A stretch of 64,000 nt of DNA, from NCBI RefSeq assembly GCF_900155985.1, contig NZ_FTMA01000001.1, positions 558,001 to 622,000 on the forward strand, given 5' to 3'. Position numbers and translations under genes: made by a program. The notes under the pieces are model-generated. The model made no database searches, was not told where the DNA came from, and was given only the letters and a program-made list of their open reading frames with translations. The first letter of the stretch is position 1, and every line of letters begins with the position of its first letter. Source of the DNA: Maribacter ulvicola. Lineage in GTDB: Bacteria > Bacteroidota > Bacteroidia > Flavobacteriales > Flavobacteriaceae. This document shows positions 1 through 9,153 of the stretch, piece by piece.

Positions 1-873
1 ACTAATAGAAATGGTATTGGTGCACATTACGCTTGCTACGGCAGATGGGTTATAGGCTTCTACCAATGCATACATGTAATCTTCGTAATTCTCCGATGCA
101 ATCAAATAGTCCAAGAAACGTGCAATAGGTAAATTAGTAATGGCAAAAAGATTATGGAATTGAATATTAAAATCCTCTTTCAATGCTTTTTTAAAATCCT
201 TCTCCATGGCTGCTTGATCGCCTGGCAAATACGCTCCAGATGGGTTGTAAACCAAATCCAACTTTAAATCGCTACCCGGCATACCATAGCCTCTCTCATT
301 TAATTCTTGCAATGCCTTGATCGACTTGTCAAAAACTCCGTCACCTCTTTGCTTATCCGTTTTACCTCGGGTATAGTGTGGCATTGAAGAGATAACATGT
401 ACGTTGTGTTTTTTAAAGAAATCTGGTAGGTGATAATATTTTTTATTGGCCCTAATTATAGTCAGGTTAGATCTAACAATAAAGTCTTTAATCCCAGCTT
501 TTGCCGCCTCTTCTACAAACCACTCAAAATCAGGATTCATTTCTGGAGCACCACCGGTTAAATCTAGAGTATGTGCCCCAGTATTTTTAATGACTTCTAT
601 ACATTGCTGCATAGTTTCACGTGTCATTATCTCTTTACGGTCCGGACCTGCATCTACATGGCAATGCTCACAAACCTGATTGCACATGTAACCGACATTT
701 ATTTGTAAAATTTCCAGCTTTTTAGGTCGTAACGGAAAGTGACCAATTTCGGCAATTTTATCCTTAAAATAGGGTAACTCCCCATCAGCAAATATGCCTC
801 CGTTCAATATTTCTAATTGCTTGTTGGAAACTGCTAATTCGTTCCCTTTCGCTTTTAATGATTTTGTAGCCAT
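1..873 (-). CDS. arsS: Arsenosugar biosynthesis radical SAM protein ArsS (3' end beyond window)
   Basis: I see 291 codons from an ATG at 871-873 to the left edge without a stop, so the C-terminus is missing. Cys64, Cys68 and Cys71 form a radical SAM C-x3-C-x2-C [4Fe-4S] motif (YMCNQVCEHC), followed by HVDAGPDRKE and the segment LDLTGGAPEMNP, both typical of the radical SAM/Cys-rich family TIGR04167. ArsS transfers a 5'-deoxyadenosyl group to a trivalent dimethylated arsenical, an early step to arsenosugars. The family also has a C-terminal DUF3641 domain, which would lie outside. It is the last gene of the operon visible here, 320 bp after the phosphoesterase/AhpD fusion. The name rests on motif and context recognition; another TIGR04167-like enzyme is the main alternative. 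Confidence 0.85.
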   Translation of the reverse strand, partial: MATKSLKAKGNELAVSNKQLEILNGGIFADGELPYFKDKIAEIGHFPLRPKKLEILQINVGYMCNQVCEHCHVDAGPDRKEIMTRETMQQCIEVIKNTGAHTLDLTGGAPEMNPDFEWFVEEAAKAGIKDFIVRSNLTIIRANKKYYHLPDFFKKHNVHVISSMPHYTRGKTDKQRGDGVFDKSIKALQELNERGYGMPGSDLKLDLVYNPSGAYLPGDQAAMEKDFKKALKEDFNIQFHNLFAITNLPIARFLDYLIASENYEDYMYALVEAYNPSAVASVMCTNTISIS

Positions 874-879
874 TTTTTT

Positions 880-914
880 TTGTTGTTGGTTGATGGTTGT
901 TTGTTGTTCGTTTA
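880..914. repeat. Degenerate heptad array next to arsS start
   Basis: On the plus strand the units read TTGTTGT, TGGTTGA, TGGTTGT, TTGTTGT, TCGTTTA, five consecutive 7-mers. In the arsS mRNA sense they read as CAACAA-type units ending 6 bp before the ATG. Confidence 0.7.
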
Positions 915-1027
915 TTTTATTACGAATCAACAAACCCTTCAGCCTATTTTAATTTCTTTTTTAATAGATAGCAATTTCTATTTTGTAATATTTTGGAAAA
1001 GTAGTCATTGGCGAATATTGAGTAAAA

Positions 1028-1055
1028 CTAACAACCGACAACGAACAACTATCAA
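1028..1055. repeat. Degenerate heptad array (xxxxCAA)4
   Basis: Four consecutive plus-strand 7-mers all end in CAA: CTAACAA, CCGACAA, CGAACAA, CTATCAA. They are complementary in character to the array at 880-914. Confidence 0.7.
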
Positions 1056-1173
1056 TTAATATTACAACATTTAATTTCTTTTTTTACATGGATATTCATA
1101 GTGAATATTCCATTTGCAATATTTTTTAAACCAGCTTTAATTTCATTGTATTGATTATTGAAGAAGGCTGTTA

Positions 1174-1194
1174 CGAACAACCAACAACGAAATT
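1174..1194. repeat. Short heptad array at the phosphoesterase/AhpD gene 3' end
   Basis: CGAACAA, CCAACAA, CGAAATT abut the TAA stop (1194-1196, minus) of the upstream gene. This is the same unit type as at 1028-1055. Confidence 0.55.
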
Positions 1195-2399
1195 TACATG
1201 GATAATTTATTATACTTATTCATCATCTGTACACCATGTACCAATGTGGCGCCACTTTCAATGGCGGCACCTACATGAACGGCCTCCATCATCTCTTCTT
1301 TTGTAATTCCCTTTTGCAATCCGTCTTTAGTATAGGCATCAATGCAATAGGGGCACTTAACTACATGAGAGACAGCAAGGGCAATTAGTGACTTTTCCCT
1401 TGCACTTAGTGCGCCTTCTTCGAAAACCTTACCATAATAATCAAAAAATTTGGTCCCAAGCTCTTCGCTCCATTCTGTAATTTTTCCGAATTTTCTTAAA
1501 TCTGCTGGATCATAGTACGTATTTGCCATCTTTTTTTGTGTTTTAGGTTTTATTGAATTCTTTTCTTCTTGTTTAAAATAAATAGGGATTCCCTGTCCCA
1601 TTTTTTCTAGTTCGGGAAGTATTTCCATATTGTCCCAAATACCAGAGGTTAGCGTATCGCCATAAGCTTCTGGTAAATGGTTTTTATACATTAATTTCTG
1701 CGCGGTTTCAGCGTCATATTCAAAGGAGTGATGTGCGTAGGTAACTTCCCCATTTTCAATATCTAAAATCATATACCAAACCCGGGAGGTACCGTCATTT
1801 GCCGGCATACCTATTACACCAGGGTTCAGCCATAAGTTTTCTTTTATGGTTTGATGAAATGGCAAGCCACAATGTCCCGCAACAATGATATCACTTTCAG
1901 TGGTTGTAAAACAACGTTCTTTACTTACCGTAGCGTTTGACTTAAATACAAATTCTGAAGTATTGCCGTAATTTCCATGAACTACGGTAACGTTTTTTCC
2001 TCCATAATCAAAACTGATGTATTCTGGAATTTGCTTCATCCAATCTAAAGACTGTTGTGATAAATGCCCTTTGGTATATGGAAACCACATTTTAGAGAAA
2101 TCGTCGCAACGGCTACCACTTTTAAAATCGCACCCACAATCTTCGCTATCATTGGCAAGTTGCAATTCTACATTGCCAGCAATAGTAAGTGCTCCCCATT
2201 TTTGAAACAGTTGCACCGTTTCTTCGGGCTGTGCGCAGTAACCGGTAAGGTCACCGGTACTTATACAGTTCTTCGGTGAAATTCCAACTTCATTAGCAAT
2301 GGAAATCAATTTCTCCAAAGCTTGAAGGTTACTATACACTCCTCCAAAAAGCAATAGCTTTCCGTTCTTGGTGCCCATATGTTTTATTTCTTTATCCAT
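1194..2399 (-). CDS. Degenerate metallophosphoesterase domain fused to an AhpD-like (arsenosugar-associated) domain
   Basis: This is a 401-residue protein. The N-terminal ~240 residues follow the YfcE/calcineurin-like phosphoesterase plan, with TGDLTGY, AGNVE, VHGN and AGHCG still visible. Several metal ligands are replaced: the first D-x-H reads GVY (Gly20, Tyr22), GNH[D/E] reads GNVE, and GHxH reads GHCG. Cys88, Cys90 and Cys98 form a C-x-C-x7-C patch absent from ordinary phosphoesterases as I know them. The last ~110 residues are a carboxymuconolactone decarboxylase/AhpD-like domain with the thiol pair CPYC, matching the arsenosugar-associated peroxidase-like family TIGR04029. The start is ambiguous: 2399 overlaps the symporter gene by 16 bp, 2378 would leave a 5-bp gap, and an upstream ATG at 2441 is less likely. 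I infer thiol chemistry on arsenicals rather than phosphatase activity. Confidence 0.8.
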   Translation of the reverse strand: MDKEIKHMGTKNGKLLLFGGVYSNLQALEKLISIANEVGISPKNCISTGDLTGYCAQPEETVQLFQKWGALTIAGNVELQLANDSEDCGCDFKSGSRCDDFSKMWFPYTKGHLSQQSLDWMKQIPEYISFDYGGKNVTVVHGNYGNTSEFVFKSNATVSKERCFTTTESDIIVAGHCGLPFHQTIKENLWLNPGVIGMPANDGTSRVWYMILDIENGEVTYAHHSFEYDAETAQKLMYKNHLPEAYGDTLTSGIWDNMEILPELEKMGQGIPIYFKQEEKNSIKPKTQKKMANTYYDPADLRKFGKITEWSEELGTKFFDYYGKVFEEGALSAREKSLIALAVSHVVKCPYCIDAYTKDGLQKGITKEEMMEAVHVGAAIESGATLVHGVQMMNKYNKLSM

Positions 2400-3724
2400 G
2401 TAGGTATTATATAAACGAGTAGGCAACATAAAATGCCCCAAAAATTAATCCATAATAAATTGGCATATTTGCCGGTCGTAAAAATTAAATCACTTGGAAA
2501 CCAGTTGAAAATTAAGAGGAAACCAAAAATCAATCCGCTGAATACACTTAAATGAAAACTGATTTTAGGCGCATTACCTTTCCAAAAAAGGAAAACGGGA
2601 GTTAAACCGATGACCATGGTACCACTAATAGTTGTTGCCGATAGAATTTCTGCATCTAAAAATACCGGAACCGTACCCAAAACCGCAACAGCTACCATAG
2701 ACCACCGACCAAATTTTAAAGTGTTGCCAAGGTTTAGGTCAAGCGCCAATAACTTTGAAAATGATGAAAAGGTAGAATCTAATGTTGACGCTGCCGAGGT
2801 AATCATAATAAAATTGATGACCAATAATATCATTGTTCCAAATGCCTTACCAACTTGTACTGCTGCCTGACCTTGCATGCCTTGAGATTGGGCATAAACA
2901 CCAATGATGCTAAACAGAATAATACAAATAGCACCAAGAACACTTGCCCATAAAAAACTTTTCAATGTTACTTTCGGACTACTGATAAACCCTCTGTCCG
3001 TTAATACGGGATCATGAAAGGGATAACTGAAAGATTGCAATAAGGCTGCGAACAATAAATTCAAACCTGTTTCAAAGGACCAAATGCCAGAATTTAATAC
3101 CTCTGTCGTGCTTATAGCATTGTCATTTCCAAAAATAGTGAACAATATTACCGCTAATAACACTGAGAAAAGTCCCATTTGGACAACATCGGTAAAAATG
3201 GAGCTGCTCATGCCTCCTTTCAATACATAGGATAAAGTAAGCGCGGTAAATATTAAAATGGACCAATAATAAGCGCTGGTACCCATATCACCAAAGTACG
3301 AGCCTATGACCATAGTGTTGCTCCATACTTCATTGAACAAACGAAATGCAATCAAGATAGAGAATATGGTTACTGCAGTTTTACCAAATTTAGAAGATAA
3401 GAAATGATGGATACTGGTGTATTTACCATGCAGCCTCATTTTATAGATGACGATACCCGCTACGGCAAATGATAGATAATATCCTGCATAGGCAACACCA
3501 CCCACAATACCGAAGTCCAATCCTAAGTTTGCGGCGTTGGTTATACTCTTGGCGAATATCCAAGAAATAATCAAACTACCCATTAACATGAACGTATTGG
3601 GTGCTTTTTTCTTTTGTACCGCTTTAAAAAACTGATTGGTATCTTTAGCCCATGGAGACATAAAGAACAACATCAAACTTGATGCTATCACTAATCCCCA
3701 TTGCCAAATTTGTACTTCAGTCAT
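2384..3724 (-). CDS. Sodium:solute symporter family transporter
   Basis: The protein has 446 residues and about twelve or thirteen hydrophobic segments. Its family features are those of the SSS/SLC5 group: an N-terminal helix, then a SWIFAKSITNAANLG-type unwound helix and conserved glycines in GGMSSSIFTDVVQMG. It is an inner-membrane carrier that should use the Na+ gradient. The substrate cannot be read from sequence. It lies between the SusD gene (53-bp gap with a perfect 7-bp tandem repeat) and the phosphoesterase/AhpD fusion, with which it overlaps by about 16 bp, so it is probably translated with that protein. The context suggests uptake of a compound delivered by SusCD, perhaps an organoarsenical, nucleoside or sugar. 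That is inference. Confidence 0.85.
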   Translation of the reverse strand: MTEVQIWQWGLVIASSLMLFFMSPWAKDTNQFFKAVQKKKAPNTFMLMGSLIISWIFAKSITNAANLGLDFGIVGGVAYAGYYLSFAVAGIVIYKMRLHGKYTSIHHFLSSKFGKTAVTIFSILIAFRLFNEVWSNTMVIGSYFGDMGTSAYYWSILIFTALTLSYVLKGGMSSSIFTDVVQMGLFSVLLAVILFTIFGNDNAISTTEVLNSGIWSFETGLNLLFAALLQSFSYPFHDPVLTDRGFISSPKVTLKSFLWASVLGAICIILFSIIGVYAQSQGMQGQAAVQVGKAFGTMILLVINFIMITSAASTLDSTFSSFSKLLALDLNLGNTLKFGRWSMVAVAVLGTVPVFLDAEILSATTISGTMVIGLTPVFLFWKGNAPKISFHLSVFSGLIFGFLLIFNWFPSDLIFTTGKYANLLWINFWGILCCLLVYIIPTWIKK

Positions 3725-3739
3725 AAATTTATTTTTATT

Positions 3740-3774
3740 CCTAACTCCTAACTCCTAACTCCTAACTCCTAACT
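3740..3774. repeat. Perfect 7-bp tandem repeat, five copies of CCTAACT
   Basis: Five uninterrupted copies fill 35 of the 53 bp between the susD-like stop and the symporter start. On the mRNA strand the unit is AGTTAGG. Confidence 0.9.
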
Positions 3775-3777
3775 TTG

Positions 3778-5205
3778 TTACTCATCCCACCAAACAGCCA
3801 CATTTATACTATTGCCTTCCGTGTTATTTGAAGCTTCGGTATAATTCGCATTATTTAAAGCTTCTTCCTCAGCAGGATAAGGCATGCGTATGGGAATTAA
3901 ATCATTGTTCAAACTAGCGGAAATTGTTTTCAATTTTGGGAAACCTGTTCTTCTATATTCTATCCATCCTTCATAACCGTTTATACTATTTGCAATCCAT
4001 TTCTGAGTGATGATGTTTTGTAATGCATCTCCATTAGCGAAATTGGCATCCACCGTTAAATATTCTTGAGGAAGGTCTACTTGCCAATATTCAAATGCTT
4101 GGGTTATTCCCGTATTATAAAGACTTTCAGCTTCGGCAGTAATCAACCCTTTTTGAGCAGCTTCTGCCAATAAAAAATGCGTTTCCATACTTGTCATGAA
4201 GTTGGCGTCTAAAAGCCCTGTATTCTCTCTGAAAATAGTACCCAATAAAGAGTAATCAGCTAACGATACACCGGCAGATGCATCTATTCCGTTTAAAAGC
4301 CCATTGTATTCACCATCTAGACTGTTGGCAAAAGGTTGGTATAAGCGTGCGATACGTGGATCGTTTAAACCGGTCAAAATTTCATCCATCGTTTTAGAAA
4401 GTACGTAATTATTAAAATCACCAACCCTAAGTTGTGCAAGTCTAAAACTATTGGGCTCGCCATCGGTAAAGTTGAAAATGGCATTTTCCTCATTAGTATC
4501 AATGAAATTACCTTCATTTGCTATGGTCTGTAATTGAGAAGCCACATCTATCTTGTTAGATACACGCATTAAATATTTGATCTTTAATGAATTTGCAAAA
4601 CGGATCCATCCGTCTAAATCGCCATTAAATAAAATATCACCTTCTAACGCTATGGTTCCTGTATAGTTCTGTATGGCTAAAATTCCTTTATCTAGATTAT
4701 CGAATACACCACCTTCATCCATATAAATAGATTCTTGAGTGTCGTAGGTGGGAGTCACGGTTTCTGTATCTCCTTTAAATGCTTCTGAATAAGGAACGTC
4801 ACCAAATAAATCGGTTAAACCAGCCGCCATGTACGCTTTCATAATTCTTGCGGGACCTTCATAAACGGTATAAGCAGCATTCTCTTGAGACAAATTCAGT
4901 ATAATTTCATTATCCCTTAAATTCTGATAGAATATAGGCCACGGATTTCCTCCCAGTTGCGGTGATTTTAAATCATGCCTGTCAAATAAGTTAAAATCAA
5001 GAGCCGTGCTGTATTGACCTAACAGATTGCCTGCCGTAAAACCTTCATAAGACATTTGTTCACCGTAGTCATAGATAACCTGTCTCAACAATAGACTGGG
5101 TTGTACCGTAACCGGATCGTTAGTGTTCGTATTAATTTCTTCAAAATCTTTTGTGCAGCCAATGACCAACAATAAGATTAGAATGCTATATATATGTTTC
5201 ATCAT
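3778..5205 (-). CDS. SusD/RagB-like surface lipoprotein
   Basis: This 475-residue protein has a short lipoprotein signal ending LVIGC. Acidic residues and a lysine follow the cysteine (CTKDFEE), resembling the Bacteroidota lipoprotein export signal for display outside the cell. The body has the alpha-helical, TPR-like pattern of the SusD-like_2 group (e.g. RIMKAYMAAGLTDLFGDVPYSEA, an almost invariant stretch). SusD proteins cap the SusC barrel and bind ligand. It starts 7 bp after the susC stop and must be its partner. The ligand is unknown. The neighbours are arsenosugar genes rather than glycoside hydrolases, which is unusual for a SusCD pair. Confidence 0.93.
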   Translation of the reverse strand: MMKHIYSILILLLVIGCTKDFEEINTNTNDPVTVQPSLLLRQVIYDYGEQMSYEGFTAGNLLGQYSTALDFNLFDRHDLKSPQLGGNPWPIFYQNLRDNEIILNLSQENAAYTVYEGPARIMKAYMAAGLTDLFGDVPYSEAFKGDTETVTPTYDTQESIYMDEGGVFDNLDKGILAIQNYTGTIALEGDILFNGDLDGWIRFANSLKIKYLMRVSNKIDVASQLQTIANEGNFIDTNEENAIFNFTDGEPNSFRLAQLRVGDFNNYVLSKTMDEILTGLNDPRIARLYQPFANSLDGEYNGLLNGIDASAGVSLADYSLLGTIFRENTGLLDANFMTSMETHFLLAEAAQKGLITAEAESLYNTGITQAFEYWQVDLPQEYLTVDANFANGDALQNIITQKWIANSINGYEGWIEYRRTGFPKLKTISASLNNDLIPIRMPYPAEEEALNNANYTEASNNTEGNSINVAVWWDE

Positions 5206-5212
5206 CTTTTTC

Positions 5213-8200
5213 TTAAAAATTAAATCCGGCTTTAAAACCTATACTTCTTGTGGTAGCGTATGACATGTCTTCAACACCACTTATAAATCCTTGTCCTTGT
5301 ACCGCTAACTGCTCTGGGTCAAAATGTGGATTCTCCGTAATGGCAAACAAGTTCTTGCCAATTAGAGATAAACTCAACCTGGCATCTTGATTGAAAAAAC
5401 TAAGATTATCAAACGTATAACCAATGGATACTTGCCGTAGTTTTAAAAAGGAAGCATCATAGGTATTGTTTTCCTCATGGTTTCTGTCATAAAACTGACG
5501 ATAGTAACTTTCTGCAGTTACAGCAACGGTATTTGGAATATATTCAGGATTAGCAATAGTACCAGTATTTACAACGCCTTCTGGTACAATTCCTTCTTCT
5601 GGTCTGTTTGCAGTTTCTGCTAGTTGACCACCAACATTACCCAATGCCCTTGTTCTAGAAACAATGATACCGCCTTGTCGCCAGTCGAAAAGGAAACCCA
5701 TATTCCAGTTCTTATAATTAAATTGATTGTTGAAGCCTAGCATAAAATCAGGATTGTAATTCCCTAATTTTTGCAATTCGTTATCAGGAATGTATCTGCC
5801 TTCATCCGTTAAGATAAAATCACCATTTTCATTCTTAAGGTATCCTGTTCCGTATAGATCACCCACACGACCACCTTCTTCTGCCTGTAAAAATACCGTT
5901 TGGTTTTGACTGTCGTAAATTCTAGAATATGCCAGAGTTAATCGACCTTCGTCTTGTGGTAGGCTTTCTACCGTAGATCGGTTGATGCTAAAATTTAAGG
6001 TGCTGTTCCATTTTAAATTCTGACTTATAACCGGCGATATGCCCAAAATAATTTCTACACCTTTAGAACGAACTTCACCACCATTGACCACTTGTTGTGT
6101 ATAACCTGATGAAATACCAATAGGCAAAGAAATGATTTGATCTTTGGTTAATGCGTTATAGTAAGAAACATCAAAACGAACCTGGTCGCCAAACAATCTT
6201 ACATCTGCACCTACTTCAAATGAAGATGTTAACTCGGGTTGTAGATTCGCATTTGCAATCGTGTTTGAGTTACTAAAGGTTGGCTGACCATTAAAAGGAG
6301 TTTGCGCTACAAAAGCACCTGTAGTTTGATACGGATTTGTATCATTACCAACCTGCGCCCAACTTGCTCTTAGTTTTGCAAAGGAAATTGCTTTAGGTAA
6401 CTCAACCACTTCTGATAGTATAAAACTACTAGATACCGATGGATAAAAGAACGAGGTGTTATCTACCGAAAATGGAGTGGCTAAAGCACTGGACCAATCA
6501 TTTCTTCCGGTTATATCTAAGAAGAGGAAATTTTTATAACCAAATTTTGCTAGACCGTAAAAACTATTGATTCTTTTATTAGATTCAAACTCGAATACTT
6601 CAATTGGTGAAGCTGCATTAGATAACCTAAAAATACCCGGTTGTGCCAAACTTGTAGTTTGTGATTGTGATGTAAATGCTTTTTGATCTAATCTATTTCC
6701 TCCAAAGGAAACATCCACTTTAAAATCATTGAATTGATTGGTATAGTTTAAAAGAAAATCAGTATTCACTTCTCTAAAGAAAACATCATGTTCTGCATAC
6801 CCTCCATTTGCAAATCGGTTAGAACTGTAGGCTCTGCGCAATTGGCGTAGCTCGCTAGAATAATCCATTCCGGTACGGATAGATGCTGTTATATGGTTTG
6901 TAATATCATAGCTGGCCGAAATATTTCCAAAAACACGATCTCTATTAAAGGAGTTTCTGTTTTCATTAAGAATGAAATACGGATTATCGAAAAAGGTATA
7001 GTTATACGAATACTGTTGTGTACCCTCTAAACCGGGTTGCCAGTAATTTTTTAAATTTTCAATGTTTAAAGAACGCGGACCCCAAGCTACTAAAGAGTAA
7101 TTAGCATTTTCAGATCCATAACCATTAGAAGGTCTATTGTCGCTATTAGAATTAATGTAACTTATAGATGAATTGATGCGTAATTTATCAATCGGTTGAA
7201 AATTTAATCGAGTACTTATAGTTTGTCGGTCTAAATTAACCCCTGGTATTATAGATTCACTTCTTAAATCGGTAAATGAAAGTCGAAAGCTTCCTTTATC
7301 AAATCCGTTAGAAATAGCGATATTATTGATTAACGTTGTTCCGGTTTCGTAGAAATCTTTCAAATTATCAGGATTTGATTTAAACTCCGTCGGTGTTATG
7401 GTATTCCCGTTGTAAAGAGCAGTATCTCCACCTCGAACAATGGTACCATCTGCCAATGTCACGGGACTATCATATTGAGGAATAAGATTACCAACATCTA
7501 AACGTGGTCCCCAACTATACGTAATCAGGTCATTTGTTCCTCCACCTAATCCGTCTACAAAAGCAAATTCACCGGAGTTTCCTTGTCCGTATTCATTTTG
7601 AAAATCGGGCAGTTGAAAAGCTGAATCCACAAAAAAGCTAGTGTTGTAGCTTACGCCCAATCCTTTCGTATTCTTCCCGCTTTTGGTTTCTATGATGATT
7701 ACACCGTTGGATGCTCTTGTACCGTAAAGTGCAGCCGCACTTGGTCCTTTTAAAACCGATACTTCGGCAATATCATCGGGATTTACCTCCATTGCACTGT
7801 TTCCAAAATCTATTTCCTGAAATCCGGCTGCTGCCTCATTGGTAAAATTGAAGACCGAGTTATTATTGATAGGAACTCCGTCTACAATAAACAGGGGATT
7901 GTTATTAGAGAAAGATGCTTCGCCACGAATGGTGATTTTTGAAGAAGACCCCACGCCGGTTGCACCTTGGTTTATGGTTACACCTGCTAATTTCCCCGAA
8001 AGGTTGTCTAAAAAGTTCACTGATTTTACTTCAGTAACTCCTTTGGCATCTAGACTTTGCACCACATAACCCAATTCTTTGGTTTCTCGTTTTAAGCCTA
8101 ATGCGGTTAGTACCACTTCATCTAAAACTTCAGAAGAATCATTTAAAGTAATATTGATGGTTATGCGATTGTTGATTGAAACTAATTGAGTTTCGTATCC

Positions 8201-8416
8201 TAAAACTGAAAATTCTATTTCACCGTTAAGGTTGGGAACATCAATGGTATAAAAACCATTTTCATTGGTTATAGTTCCGGTTATGGTACCAGTTAATATA
8301 ATGTTTACGTACGGTATGGTATTTCCATCGGTATCGGTAACAATACCTGTAATTGTTTCTTGAGCATTGACCATGTTTATCATAAACACCGTCAACACTA
8401 GTAATAAGTGTTTCAT
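5213..8416 (-). CDS. SusC/RagA family TonB-dependent outer-membrane transporter
   Basis: This is 1067 residues, normal for the family. It has a signal peptide ending VNAQ, then a carboxypeptidase-regulatory-like domain (about residues 20-95) and the segment EVVLTALGLKRETKELGYVVQ. The plug domain contains DNLSGKLAGV and TRASNGVIIIETKSG, the SusC hallmark, and is followed by a long 22-strand-type barrel ending in an aromatic residue (KAGFNF). It imports a large or scarce ligand across the outer membrane using TonB and works with the adjacent SusD-like lipoprotein. No polysaccharide-degrading enzyme lies nearby. Together with ArsS and DUF2064 this points to a small-molecule substrate, though none can be named from sequence. 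Confidence 0.95.
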   Translation of the reverse strand: MKHLLLVLTVFMINMVNAQETITGIVTDTDGNTIPYVNIILTGTITGTITNENGFYTIDVPNLNGEIEFSVLGYETQLVSINNRITINITLNDSSEVLDEVVLTALGLKRETKELGYVVQSLDAKGVTEVKSVNFLDNLSGKLAGVTINQGATGVGSSSKITIRGEASFSNNNPLFIVDGVPINNNSVFNFTNEAAAGFQEIDFGNSAMEVNPDDIAEVSVLKGPSAAALYGTRASNGVIIIETKSGKNTKGLGVSYNTSFFVDSAFQLPDFQNEYGQGNSGEFAFVDGLGGGTNDLITYSWGPRLDVGNLIPQYDSPVTLADGTIVRGGDTALYNGNTITPTEFKSNPDNLKDFYETGTTLINNIAISNGFDKGSFRLSFTDLRSESIIPGVNLDRQTISTRLNFQPIDKLRINSSISYINSNSDNRPSNGYGSENANYSLVAWGPRSLNIENLKNYWQPGLEGTQQYSYNYTFFDNPYFILNENRNSFNRDRVFGNISASYDITNHITASIRTGMDYSSELRQLRRAYSSNRFANGGYAEHDVFFREVNTDFLLNYTNQFNDFKVDVSFGGNRLDQKAFTSQSQTTSLAQPGIFRLSNAASPIEVFEFESNKRINSFYGLAKFGYKNFLFLDITGRNDWSSALATPFSVDNTSFFYPSVSSSFILSEVVELPKAISFAKLRASWAQVGNDTNPYQTTGAFVAQTPFNGQPTFSNSNTIANANLQPELTSSFEVGADVRLFGDQVRFDVSYYNALTKDQIISLPIGISSGYTQQVVNGGEVRSKGVEIILGISPVISQNLKWNSTLNFSINRSTVESLPQDEGRLTLAYSRIYDSQNQTVFLQAEEGGRVGDLYGTGYLKNENGDFILTDEGRYIPDNELQKLGNYNPDFMLGFNNQFNYKNWNMGFLFDWRQGGIIVSRTRALGNVGGQLAETANRPEEGIVPEGVVNTGTIANPEYIPNTVAVTAESYYRQFYDRNHEENNTYDASFLKLRQVSIGYTFDNLSFFNQDARLSLSLIGKNLFAITENPHFDPEQLAVQGQGFISGVEDMSYATTRSIGFKAGFNF

Positions 8417-8441
8417 ATATAGCTTTGGACTGAGTTTTTAA

Positions 8442-8460
8442 TTATCCAACTTTTGGATAA
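8442..8460. other. Small perfect hairpin between DUF2064 gene and susC
   Basis: TTATCCAA and TTGGATAA flank a 3-nt loop. No T-run follows, so it is not a clear terminator; it may shape the susC leader. Confidence 0.4.
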
Positions 8461-8466
8461 AGAGGG

Positions 8467-9153
8467 CTAGATAAATGAAAGTGCCGGAGAGCCTTTGTTG
8501 TACGGAAAGCTATTTGGAAAGAGCGTGGAGTAATTCTGGTTAGTAGCGTATATATTTCTGTTTATATTTAACAGACTTACAATTAATGATAATAAAGTTG
8601 AAGATAGACCGGCGGAAAACGATAGTATGGATCGTAAATCCCGTTCGTTGTCCAAATCTTGAAGAACAGGTAATTTTATTAATTCTGACGCTTCTTCTTG
8701 TAAACACAAGGAAATTTGCTGGTATAAGCTAAAACGTTGCCACGGCAATTTTTTAAATTCAGCAACTGTAAAATTAGATTTTTGCAAACCTAATAAATAG
8801 AAACCACCGTCAATAGAAGGACCAATTACGGTCTTGCCCATTGCCAGTTGTTTGGCAGTATGTTTAAGATGCTGGGTTTTTAAATGTGGCGTATCATTAC
8901 CAATCGTAATAATATTAGAAAAGCCTTTGTCAAAAACACTAGCAATGGCATTGGTAAAACGTTCGCCAAAAGAAGCACCAACTTGATTTTCATCTGAAAA
9001 ATGAAAAACAGGTAAACCTGTTCTTTTGGCCTTTTTAAGAGTAGTTTGGGTTAAAGCATCAAATAATTGCTCACCTTTAAGAATGTGCTTGTTCGCCAAA
9101 TCTTGTTTGGCGGAGTTGGCAAATACTAAAATTGCAGTAGGCAGTGAATTCAA
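8467..9153 (-). CDS. DUF2064 / TIGR04282-type glycosyltransferase of arsenosugar clusters
   Basis: This is a 228-residue GT-A-like protein. IGNDTPHL fits the usual G-x-D-x-P nucleotide-sugar motif and GPSIDGGFYLLGL fits the family's GP-x2-DGG block. TIGR04282/DUF2064 proteins recur beside ArsS and are annotated as arsenosugar glycosyltransferases, though direct biochemical proof is limited as far as I know. The core should end around residue 185. The last ~40 residues add a hydrophobic stretch (SSTLLSLIVSLLNI) and an unrelated tail, possibly a membrane contact or a divergent 3' end. It is the first gene of the minus-strand operon, 50 bp before susC. Confidence 0.8.
   Translation of the reverse strand: MNSLPTAILVFANSAKQDLANKHILKGEQLFDALTQTTLKKAKRTGLPVFHFSDENQVGASFGERFTNAIASVFDKGFSNIITIGNDTPHLKTQHLKHTAKQLAMGKTVIGPSIDGGFYLLGLQKSNFTVAEFKKLPWQRFSLYQQISLCLQEEASELIKLPVLQDLDNERDLRSILSFSAGLSSTLLSLIVSLLNINRNIYATNQNYSTLFPNSFPYNKGSPALSFI

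Follow-up and report, generated by a model that had tools for sequence, protein, structure and literature searches.

A SusCD and sodium symporter cassette joined to ArsS genes in Maribacter ulvicola and other bacteria: a candidate uptake module of the ArsS pathway

Introduction

The window analysed here, a stretch of 64,000 nucleotides from Maribacter ulvicola (contig NZ_FTMA01000001.1, positions 558,001 to 622,000), opens with a run of genes in which a SusC-SusD pair (SusCD) and a sodium:solute-symporter-type protein (SSS) stand in line with ArsS, a radical SAM protein. SusCD and SSS proteins import. The question raised by this locus is what such a two-membrane transport set does beside ArsS, which is described in the cited passages as adenosylating an arsenical (PMC12159101). 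The ArsS pathway itself is known. Within its operons, a SusCD-SSS cassette is apparently undescribed; it is conserved in some 30 genera. Its presence among the arsenosugar genes of many marine bacteria suggests a pathway supplied from outside. A partial-term search of the open-access PubMed Central literature returned, among the matches listed, no description of a SusCD or symporter in an arsenosugar operon.

It is proposed here that the cassette is a dedicated two-membrane uptake module serving the ArsS pathway, with an organoarsenical as the likely substrate. A rough probability of 0.48 is given to this reading.

Gene content of the locus

Six successive open reading frames (ORFs), all on the minus strand, were read in positions 1-9153 of the window (G000:C5:558001-567153), as the preliminary description had reported. 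Five genes form the cassette GTp-SusC-SusD-SSS-MPE, which is joined to AhpD (TIGR04169) and ArsS (Table 1). MPE and AhpD share one reading frame (ORF 1194-2441) with both domains over their cut-offs, so that the fusion proposed earlier is real; the term pseudo-phosphoesterase used for its first part was also correct, since the metal-binding motifs are lost. The complete ArsS has 371 aa (L004:4818-5933) and extends 183 bases beyond the left window edge. The whole protein scored 441 bits against TIGR04167 (cut-off 300), and the ArsS of the window is 96% identical to that of M. huludaoensis. As for the markers of an arsenosugar operon, ArsS (TIGR04167) and the peroxidase-like TIGR04169 protein were both found over cut-off in the window.

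No carbohydrate-active enzyme was detected among the six genes with Pfam and NCBIfam, in line with the earlier remark on its absence; genes further off were inspected by eye only. Profile matches gave no phosphatase among the six genes either, and the cassette showed no recognisable export gene. One earlier assignment had to be abandoned. Gene 1 had been taken for the arsenosugar enzyme TIGR04282; it reached 92 bits with a cut-off of 134, over profile positions 69-189 only (PF09837, 73 bits), and a full-score gene of that family (210 bits) sits on contig C8 of the same genome. The canonical TIGR04282 identity of gene 1, here called GTp, is thus ruled out.

Table 1. Positions of the genes and domains of the cassette and of ArsS in the window, and of metallophosphoesterase genes in arsenic-resistance operons.
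Feature	Position	Strand	Remarks
GTp, diverged DUF2064/TIGR04282-like protein	8467..9153	-	228 aa, TTG start; KTRL loop of canonical TIGR04282 absent
SusC, TonB-dependent outer-membrane transporter, BT2264-like	5213..8416	-	1067 aa; TIGR04056 583 bits (cut-off 368)
SusD-type lipoprotein	3778..5205	-	475 aa; PF12771 302 bits; solved SusD homologues
SSS, sodium:solute-symporter-type protein	2384..3724	-	446 aa; weak model matches, model-based fold match
MPE, metallophosphoesterase domain, metal-binding motifs lost	1524..2441	-	N-terminal part of fusion ORF 1194-2441; PF12850 (Metallophos_2) 39.8 bits (cut-off 27)
AhpD-like domain TIGR04169, CPYC motif	1194..1523	-	C-terminal part of fusion ORF; 196 bits (cut-off 120), residues 307-415
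ArsS radical SAM protein, cut by window edge	1..933	-	TIGR04167 341 bits for in-window part (cut-off 300); CxxxCxxC
Metallophosphoesterase genes in arsenic-resistance operons	L151:1218-6490		
	L152:4038-7397		
	L153:4594-7603		
	L154:1426-6812		

Linkage of the cassette to ArsS

A sample of 199 Flavobacteriaceae genomes was searched, with the SSS subfamily called at E 1e-60. ArsS was found over cut-off in 158 genomes, ArsM (NF038099) in 128 and SSS in 31, and all 31 SSS-positive genomes were also ArsS-positive. The SSS loci of 30 other genomes (18-20 kb each; window genome excluded) were then compared. SSS and MPE were adjacent in every one, mostly overlapping (median -58 bases). SusC-SusD lay upstream of SSS in 27 (exceptions G142, G105 and G002), GTp lay upstream of SusC in 26, and ArsS was inside the same stretch in 29 (exception G074).

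Two arrangements were observed. The cassette followed ArsS in 22 of 29 loci, rhodanese then coming after MPE in 20 of these 22, and the usual order was AhpD-ArsS-GTp-SusC-SusD-SSS-MPE-rhodanese-TIGR04282-PNP-(ArsM)-hydroxylase-DUF547-TIGR04283. In the remaining 7 the cassette preceded AhpD-ArsS, which is the arrangement of the window; MPE and AhpD were fused in 5 of these 7 as well as in the window. SSS was also carried by 15 of 80 loci selected for similarity to the window ArsS, a biased set that overlaps the 199-genome sample.

The co-occurrence extended beyond the family. In a class-wide sample of 296 genomes, SSS was present in 11 and ArsS in 53, and all 11, from 7 family codes, fell within the 53 (hypergeometric 2.4e-9 without regard to relatedness). 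A phylum sample, also of 296 genomes, gave six matches below 1e-100 with an MPE query, G368 and G476 being new. ArsS was present in all 12 cassette genomes checked further. Outside Flavobacteriaceae, ArsS adjoined the cassette in 3 of 10 loci (G379, G368, G718), with MPE and AhpD in one frame in G368 and G718, and GTp lay upstream of SusC in 7 of the 10 (exceptions G379, G267, G368). The MPE gene of G642 is on the opposite strand. In G483, SusC and SusD were 46% and 41% identical to the best reference and SSS 59%.

With the same neighbours in many genera, the gene grouping is more than chance, and the tie of the cassette to the ArsS pathway is well supported. An ordinary nutrient importer, placed beside ArsS by chance or shared mobility, would suit the patchy presence (31/199 genomes) and the loci outside Flavobacteriaceae where ArsS is not adjacent (7/10). 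It is nevertheless very unlikely, since no SSS-positive genome of either sample and none of the 12 checked genomes is without ArsS, the operons come in two arrangements, and MPE is fused to AhpD.

The transport proteins

The best solved match of SusC was BT2264 (5fq6) with 428 bits, the next-best giving 122 bits. Two control flavobacterial SusCs showed the reverse pattern: their best match was 8aa4 (437 and 473 bits), and BT2264 was the worst of nine full-length chains (155 and 118 bits). We take 8aa4 and 5t3r to be glycan importers; the search output names both only as SusC homologs. The divergent SusC of G483 likewise sided with BT2264 (417 bits). Judged by best solved match and two controls, with no tree, SusC appears to group with the peptide importer BT2264, apart from the other solved SusCs. 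A SusC clade clearly tied to a glycan had been named in advance as evidence that would speak against the proposed arsenosugar role; what was found is a SusC that departs from the solved SusCs best matched by the controls. A glycan SusCD is thus not supported by these comparisons, in which RagA was not prominent and no SusC tree was used.

Oligopeptide ligands are reported for BT2263-64 in the cited passages (PMC7782687). RagA, another peptide importer, was not specially close to SusC (109 bits). The kinship of SusC to the oligopeptide importer BT2264, together with the conserved cysteines of MPE described below, would also agree with a module that takes back an arsenic product secreted by the cell itself, or an arsenic-peptide or arsenic-thiol complex, as siderophore systems do with their ligand. 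This is rather improbable, given that no export gene is recognised in the cassette and that RagA is not specially close.

SSS scored 32 bits against TIGR00813 (cut-off 184) and 20.1 bits against PF00474 (cut-off 22.8); its relative in G379 reached 27.9 bits against PF00474, above the 22.8 cut-off. In a low-confidence model (mean pLDDT 66) the predicted fold resembles those of choline, sugar, urea and iodide symporters, with matches to CHT1, SGLT and NIS. The structure models gave no decision on the cassette substrate. Going by what is known of these protein families, the direction of transport would be import.

MPE and its relatives

In MPE, FGG[VP]YSN and GH[CSA]G take the place of SDxHxN and GHTH; the first Asp-x-His and the final GHTH histidine are lost. 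A model of the L013 homologue (mean pLDDT 79) predicts the fold of SapH-type Ap4A hydrolases (3qfm). Relatives with intact motifs (23-29% identical) were found in arsenic-resistance operons at four of the six plasmid loci opened, of 99 matching records: those of Mucilaginibacter, Hymenobacter, Paraclostridium and Rubrobacter, and not those of Pannonibacter or Natrinema. Cys-Gly-Cys is invariant in all 20 rows of the MPE-family alignment A5; outside this alignment, it is missing from the Pannonibacter and Natrinema proteins and from the second copy in Mucilaginibacter. Annotated arsenic-resistance operons with ArsR, ACR3, ArsC or ArsM repeatedly contain metallophosphoesterase genes, in some cases next to DUF6428. 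In G568, ORFs resembling ArsR, DUF6428 and ACR3 by eye (L162:749-3239) were noted about 5 kb from a stand-alone cassette.

On a plasmid of Roseomonas haemaphysalidis, a degenerate MPE (37.5% identity) immediately follows genes of the PhnD, PhnE and PhnC types, with TIGR04282 close by; the transporter beside MPE therefore seems exchangeable. The whole series (L150:3850-10810) consists of TIGR04282, DUF547, two radical SAM genes, the PhnD/E/C-type ABC genes and the degenerate MPE. This may be a further locus for arsenic or for a related natural product, equipped with an importer of its own.

The PhnD/E/C-type genes next to MPE also recall a different explanation, in which the cassette scavenges phosphorus or another nutrient and is co-induced with arsenosugar synthesis because arsenate enters under phosphate shortage. 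A PiT (phosphate-transporter-like) gene, named by its sequence and an annotated Acinetobacter relative, would agree with it, being present in 7 of 59 PNP-bearing loci that lack SSS and in 0 of 31 with SSS. So would the alga Picocystis, in which, according to passages of one report, phosphate supply alters arsenosugar and arsenolipid levels (PMC7345539). Phosphorus scavenging is improbable all the same: the cassette MPE has no catalytic motifs, the six genes include no phosphatase, and cassette presence tracks ArsS.

The PiT gene stands in the cassette-free ArsS operons L039, L043, L052, L055, L056, L063 and L082; on an Acinetobacter plasmid it follows the ArsS operon (L160:12307-12939). A role of this transporter as a substitute for the cassette was considered and set aside, the cases being too few (7/59 vs 0/31). 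The plasmid in question, pJNE5-X3_NDM-1 of Acinetobacter portensis, carries the ArsS operon and reports NDM-1 in its name.

GTp

Presence or absence of the KTRL motif was used to sort the 87 family members longer than 170 aa, giving 62 canonical proteins and 25 of the GTp type, so that the loss of KTRL is a definition and not a result. In the alignment of these rows, the GTp proteins additionally share GNDTP, DGGFYL, LPWQ and a C-terminal NKGSP. GTp was also observed beside ArsS or AhpD-ArsS without SusCD in 10 of the 80 ArsS loci, before AhpD in L014, L016-L020 and L023 and after ArsS in L021, L026 and L040. GTp may therefore belong to the ArsS pathway and not just to the importer.

Arsenite methyltransferase genes

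Neither ArsM model (NF038099, NF008823) gave a match over cut-off in this genome, which is 99.96% complete, and an ArsM protein query gave none. It had been supposed that ArsM might lie past the left edge of the window; the gene content there (a TetR gene and others) and the genome-wide model search rule this out. NF038099 was absent in 15 of 31 ArsS genomes with SSS vs 15 of 127 without it (odds ratio 7, Fisher p 2.2e-5). Fourteen of the 15 SSS genomes without NF038099 were also without NF008823 over cut-off, this second model covering, among the 30 ArsS genomes without NF038099, the 15 with SSS. Among the 12 further cassette genomes, 3 had NF038099, and NF008823 was over cut-off in 2 of the other 9. 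In total, 21 of 43 cassette genomes had neither model over cut-off, including G267 with a 188-bit match below it.

The association was also evaluated on a tree of 90 of the 158 ArsS genomes (30/31 with SSS, 13/15 with neither, 47/112 with ArsM only). The tree was poorly resolved, with stars on 4 of 87 inner branches. G002, whose branch is very long, was retained in the supported-branch pair test and omitted from the best-tree pair test. On the best tree regardless of support, 14 pairs gave means of 4.4 for and 0.4 against, with a median p of 0.125 (range 0.016-0.625). A loss of ArsM going with the cassette was thus not retained, the plain count being significant and the tree tests not.

The occurrence of the cassette both with and without ArsM would be accounted for if the module imported a non-arsenical building block, namely the alcohol, glycoside or lipid head group that bears the arsenic sugar, or a precursor of it. 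The common gene order, which places the cassette between ArsS and the TIGR04282/PNP/TIGR04283 genes, points the same way, as do the fatty-acid-hydroxylase-type (PF04116) and glycosyltransferase genes found within cassette-bearing operons. Such a building block is nonetheless a doubtful substrate, because MPE, the partner of SSS, belongs by descent to a family that occurs in arsenic-resistance operons and SSS-MPE is retained without SusCD in 3 of 30 loci.

Proposed function

In the proposed uptake of an organoarsenical, TonB energy would drive passage of the compound through SusC, with SusD as its lid, at the outer membrane, and the sodium symporter would bring it through the inner membrane. 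In the cytosol, MPE, whose metal site is gone while conserved cysteines remain, would act as a receiver or sensor beside the AhpD-like thiol protein and ArsS. From the MPE kin in arsenic operons, the importer swap in Roseomonas and the genomes without recognisable ArsM, we infer as the most likely substrate an organic compound of arsenic, either a methylated arsenical such as dimethylarsinate or an arsenosugar-type breakdown product. Thiols of MPE and of AhpD, which has CPYC in the window, would receive the arsenical, and once reduced it would pass into the pathway at or near ArsS. Since 3 of 30 loci keep SSS-MPE without SusCD, SusCD is perhaps needed just for larger arsenical forms. Passages of one report suggest that phytoplankton-released organoarsenicals are mineralised by bacteria (PMC7345539), and such compounds may therefore be on offer.

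A tentative extension, possible at best, is that methylated arsenic or algal organoarsenicals are scavenged through this TonB- and sodium-driven importer and built into arsenic sugars, that about half of the carriers can for this reason do without a recognisable arsenite methyltransferase, and that the two degenerate cassette enzymes are cytosolic arsenical receivers derived from arsenic-pathway enzymes.

Several observations weigh against the organoarsenical uptake module. In 7 of 10 loci outside Flavobacteriaceae, ArsS is elsewhere in the genome and does not adjoin the cassette, and no cassette was found at three plasmid ArsS loci outside this family (Hymenobacter, Thiodictyon, Acinetobacter). 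The two Roseomonas radical SAM genes are not ArsS by score (<=61 bits, cut-off 300). Neither ArsS nor MPE lies near a related symporter (43%) carried by a Marinobacter plasmid. Cassette and ArsM occur together in 16 of 31 family genomes, and the association of the cassette with ArsM absence was unconfirmed by the tree tests, only 3 pairs lying on supported branches. Finally, SusC is nearest to a peptide importer, and arsenicals of the simplest kind are small cargo for SusCD.

The preliminary description had suggested an import or recycling path for arsenosugar building, and had asked whether the SusCD-SSS-ArsS linkage is conserved beyond close relatives. The linkage extends well past close relatives, into many genera in the family and class samples; linkage and co-occurrence bear out the tie to the ArsS genes, and the direction comes from the protein families. 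If organoarsenicals are indeed imported, the cassette would provide an outer-membrane route for taking up arsenic compounds that are wanted by the cell and not expelled. It would explain ArsS function in genomes without recognisable ArsM, and algae-associated bacteria would be active players in the marine organoarsenic cycle. SSS, MPE and GTp are concrete candidate genes for the unsettled parts of the pathway. Even with a different substrate, the cassette is a conserved part of ArsS operons.

Surroundings and second locus

The arsenosugar pathway is split over two loci in this genome. On contig C8 (L005:1279-11451), rhodanese (NF045521), canonical TIGR04282, PNP and TIGR04283 genes lie on the minus strand, with DUF547, FAD oxidoreductase and ferredoxin-type genes nearby. 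To the left of the window, downstream of ArsS and on the same strand, a TetR gene was found (L004:3951-4568), with other genes beyond it; its relatives occur in 10 of the 80 ArsS loci, and it is a possible regulator.

A terminator-like stem of 13 pairs lies 3' of ArsS and is suggestive only, as the region holds 8 such sites vs 6.7 in shuffles. Sigma-70-like sites numbered 29 in the region vs 38 in shuffles. No occurrence of a Bacteroidota-type promoter pattern was found, and an Rfam scan gave no match.

Comparison with known systems

Polysaccharide utilisation loci have the SusC-SusD pair in common with the window, which differs from them by the absence of a carbohydrate-active enzyme among the six genes and by a SusC not close to the other solved SusCs. 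The oligopeptide SusCD BT2263/BT2264 (5fq6) has by far the closest solved SusC (428 vs 122 bits); in place of a peptide-use locus, the window has a symporter, a degenerate MPE and ArsS genes. PhnCDE-type phosphonate ABC importers occupy, in Roseomonas, the place of SusCD-SSS directly before MPE. They are an unrelated transporter type, and the radical SAM proteins near them score too low for ArsS.

The metallophosphoesterases of arsenic-resistance operons and the SapH-type hydrolases form one family with MPE by alignment and share its fold and, in A5, the Cys-Gly-Cys motif; the cassette protein differs by the loss of the first Asp-x-His and of the final GHTH histidine. The ArsS-type arsenosugar operon (TIGR04167, TIGR04169, TIGR04282, TIGR04283, ArsM NF038099) shares ArsS and TIGR04169 with the window and TIGR04282, TIGR04283, PNP and rhodanese with contig C8. 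In contrast to that operon, the genes of this genome are placed in two loci, no ArsM was found with them, and a transport cassette is attached to ArsS.

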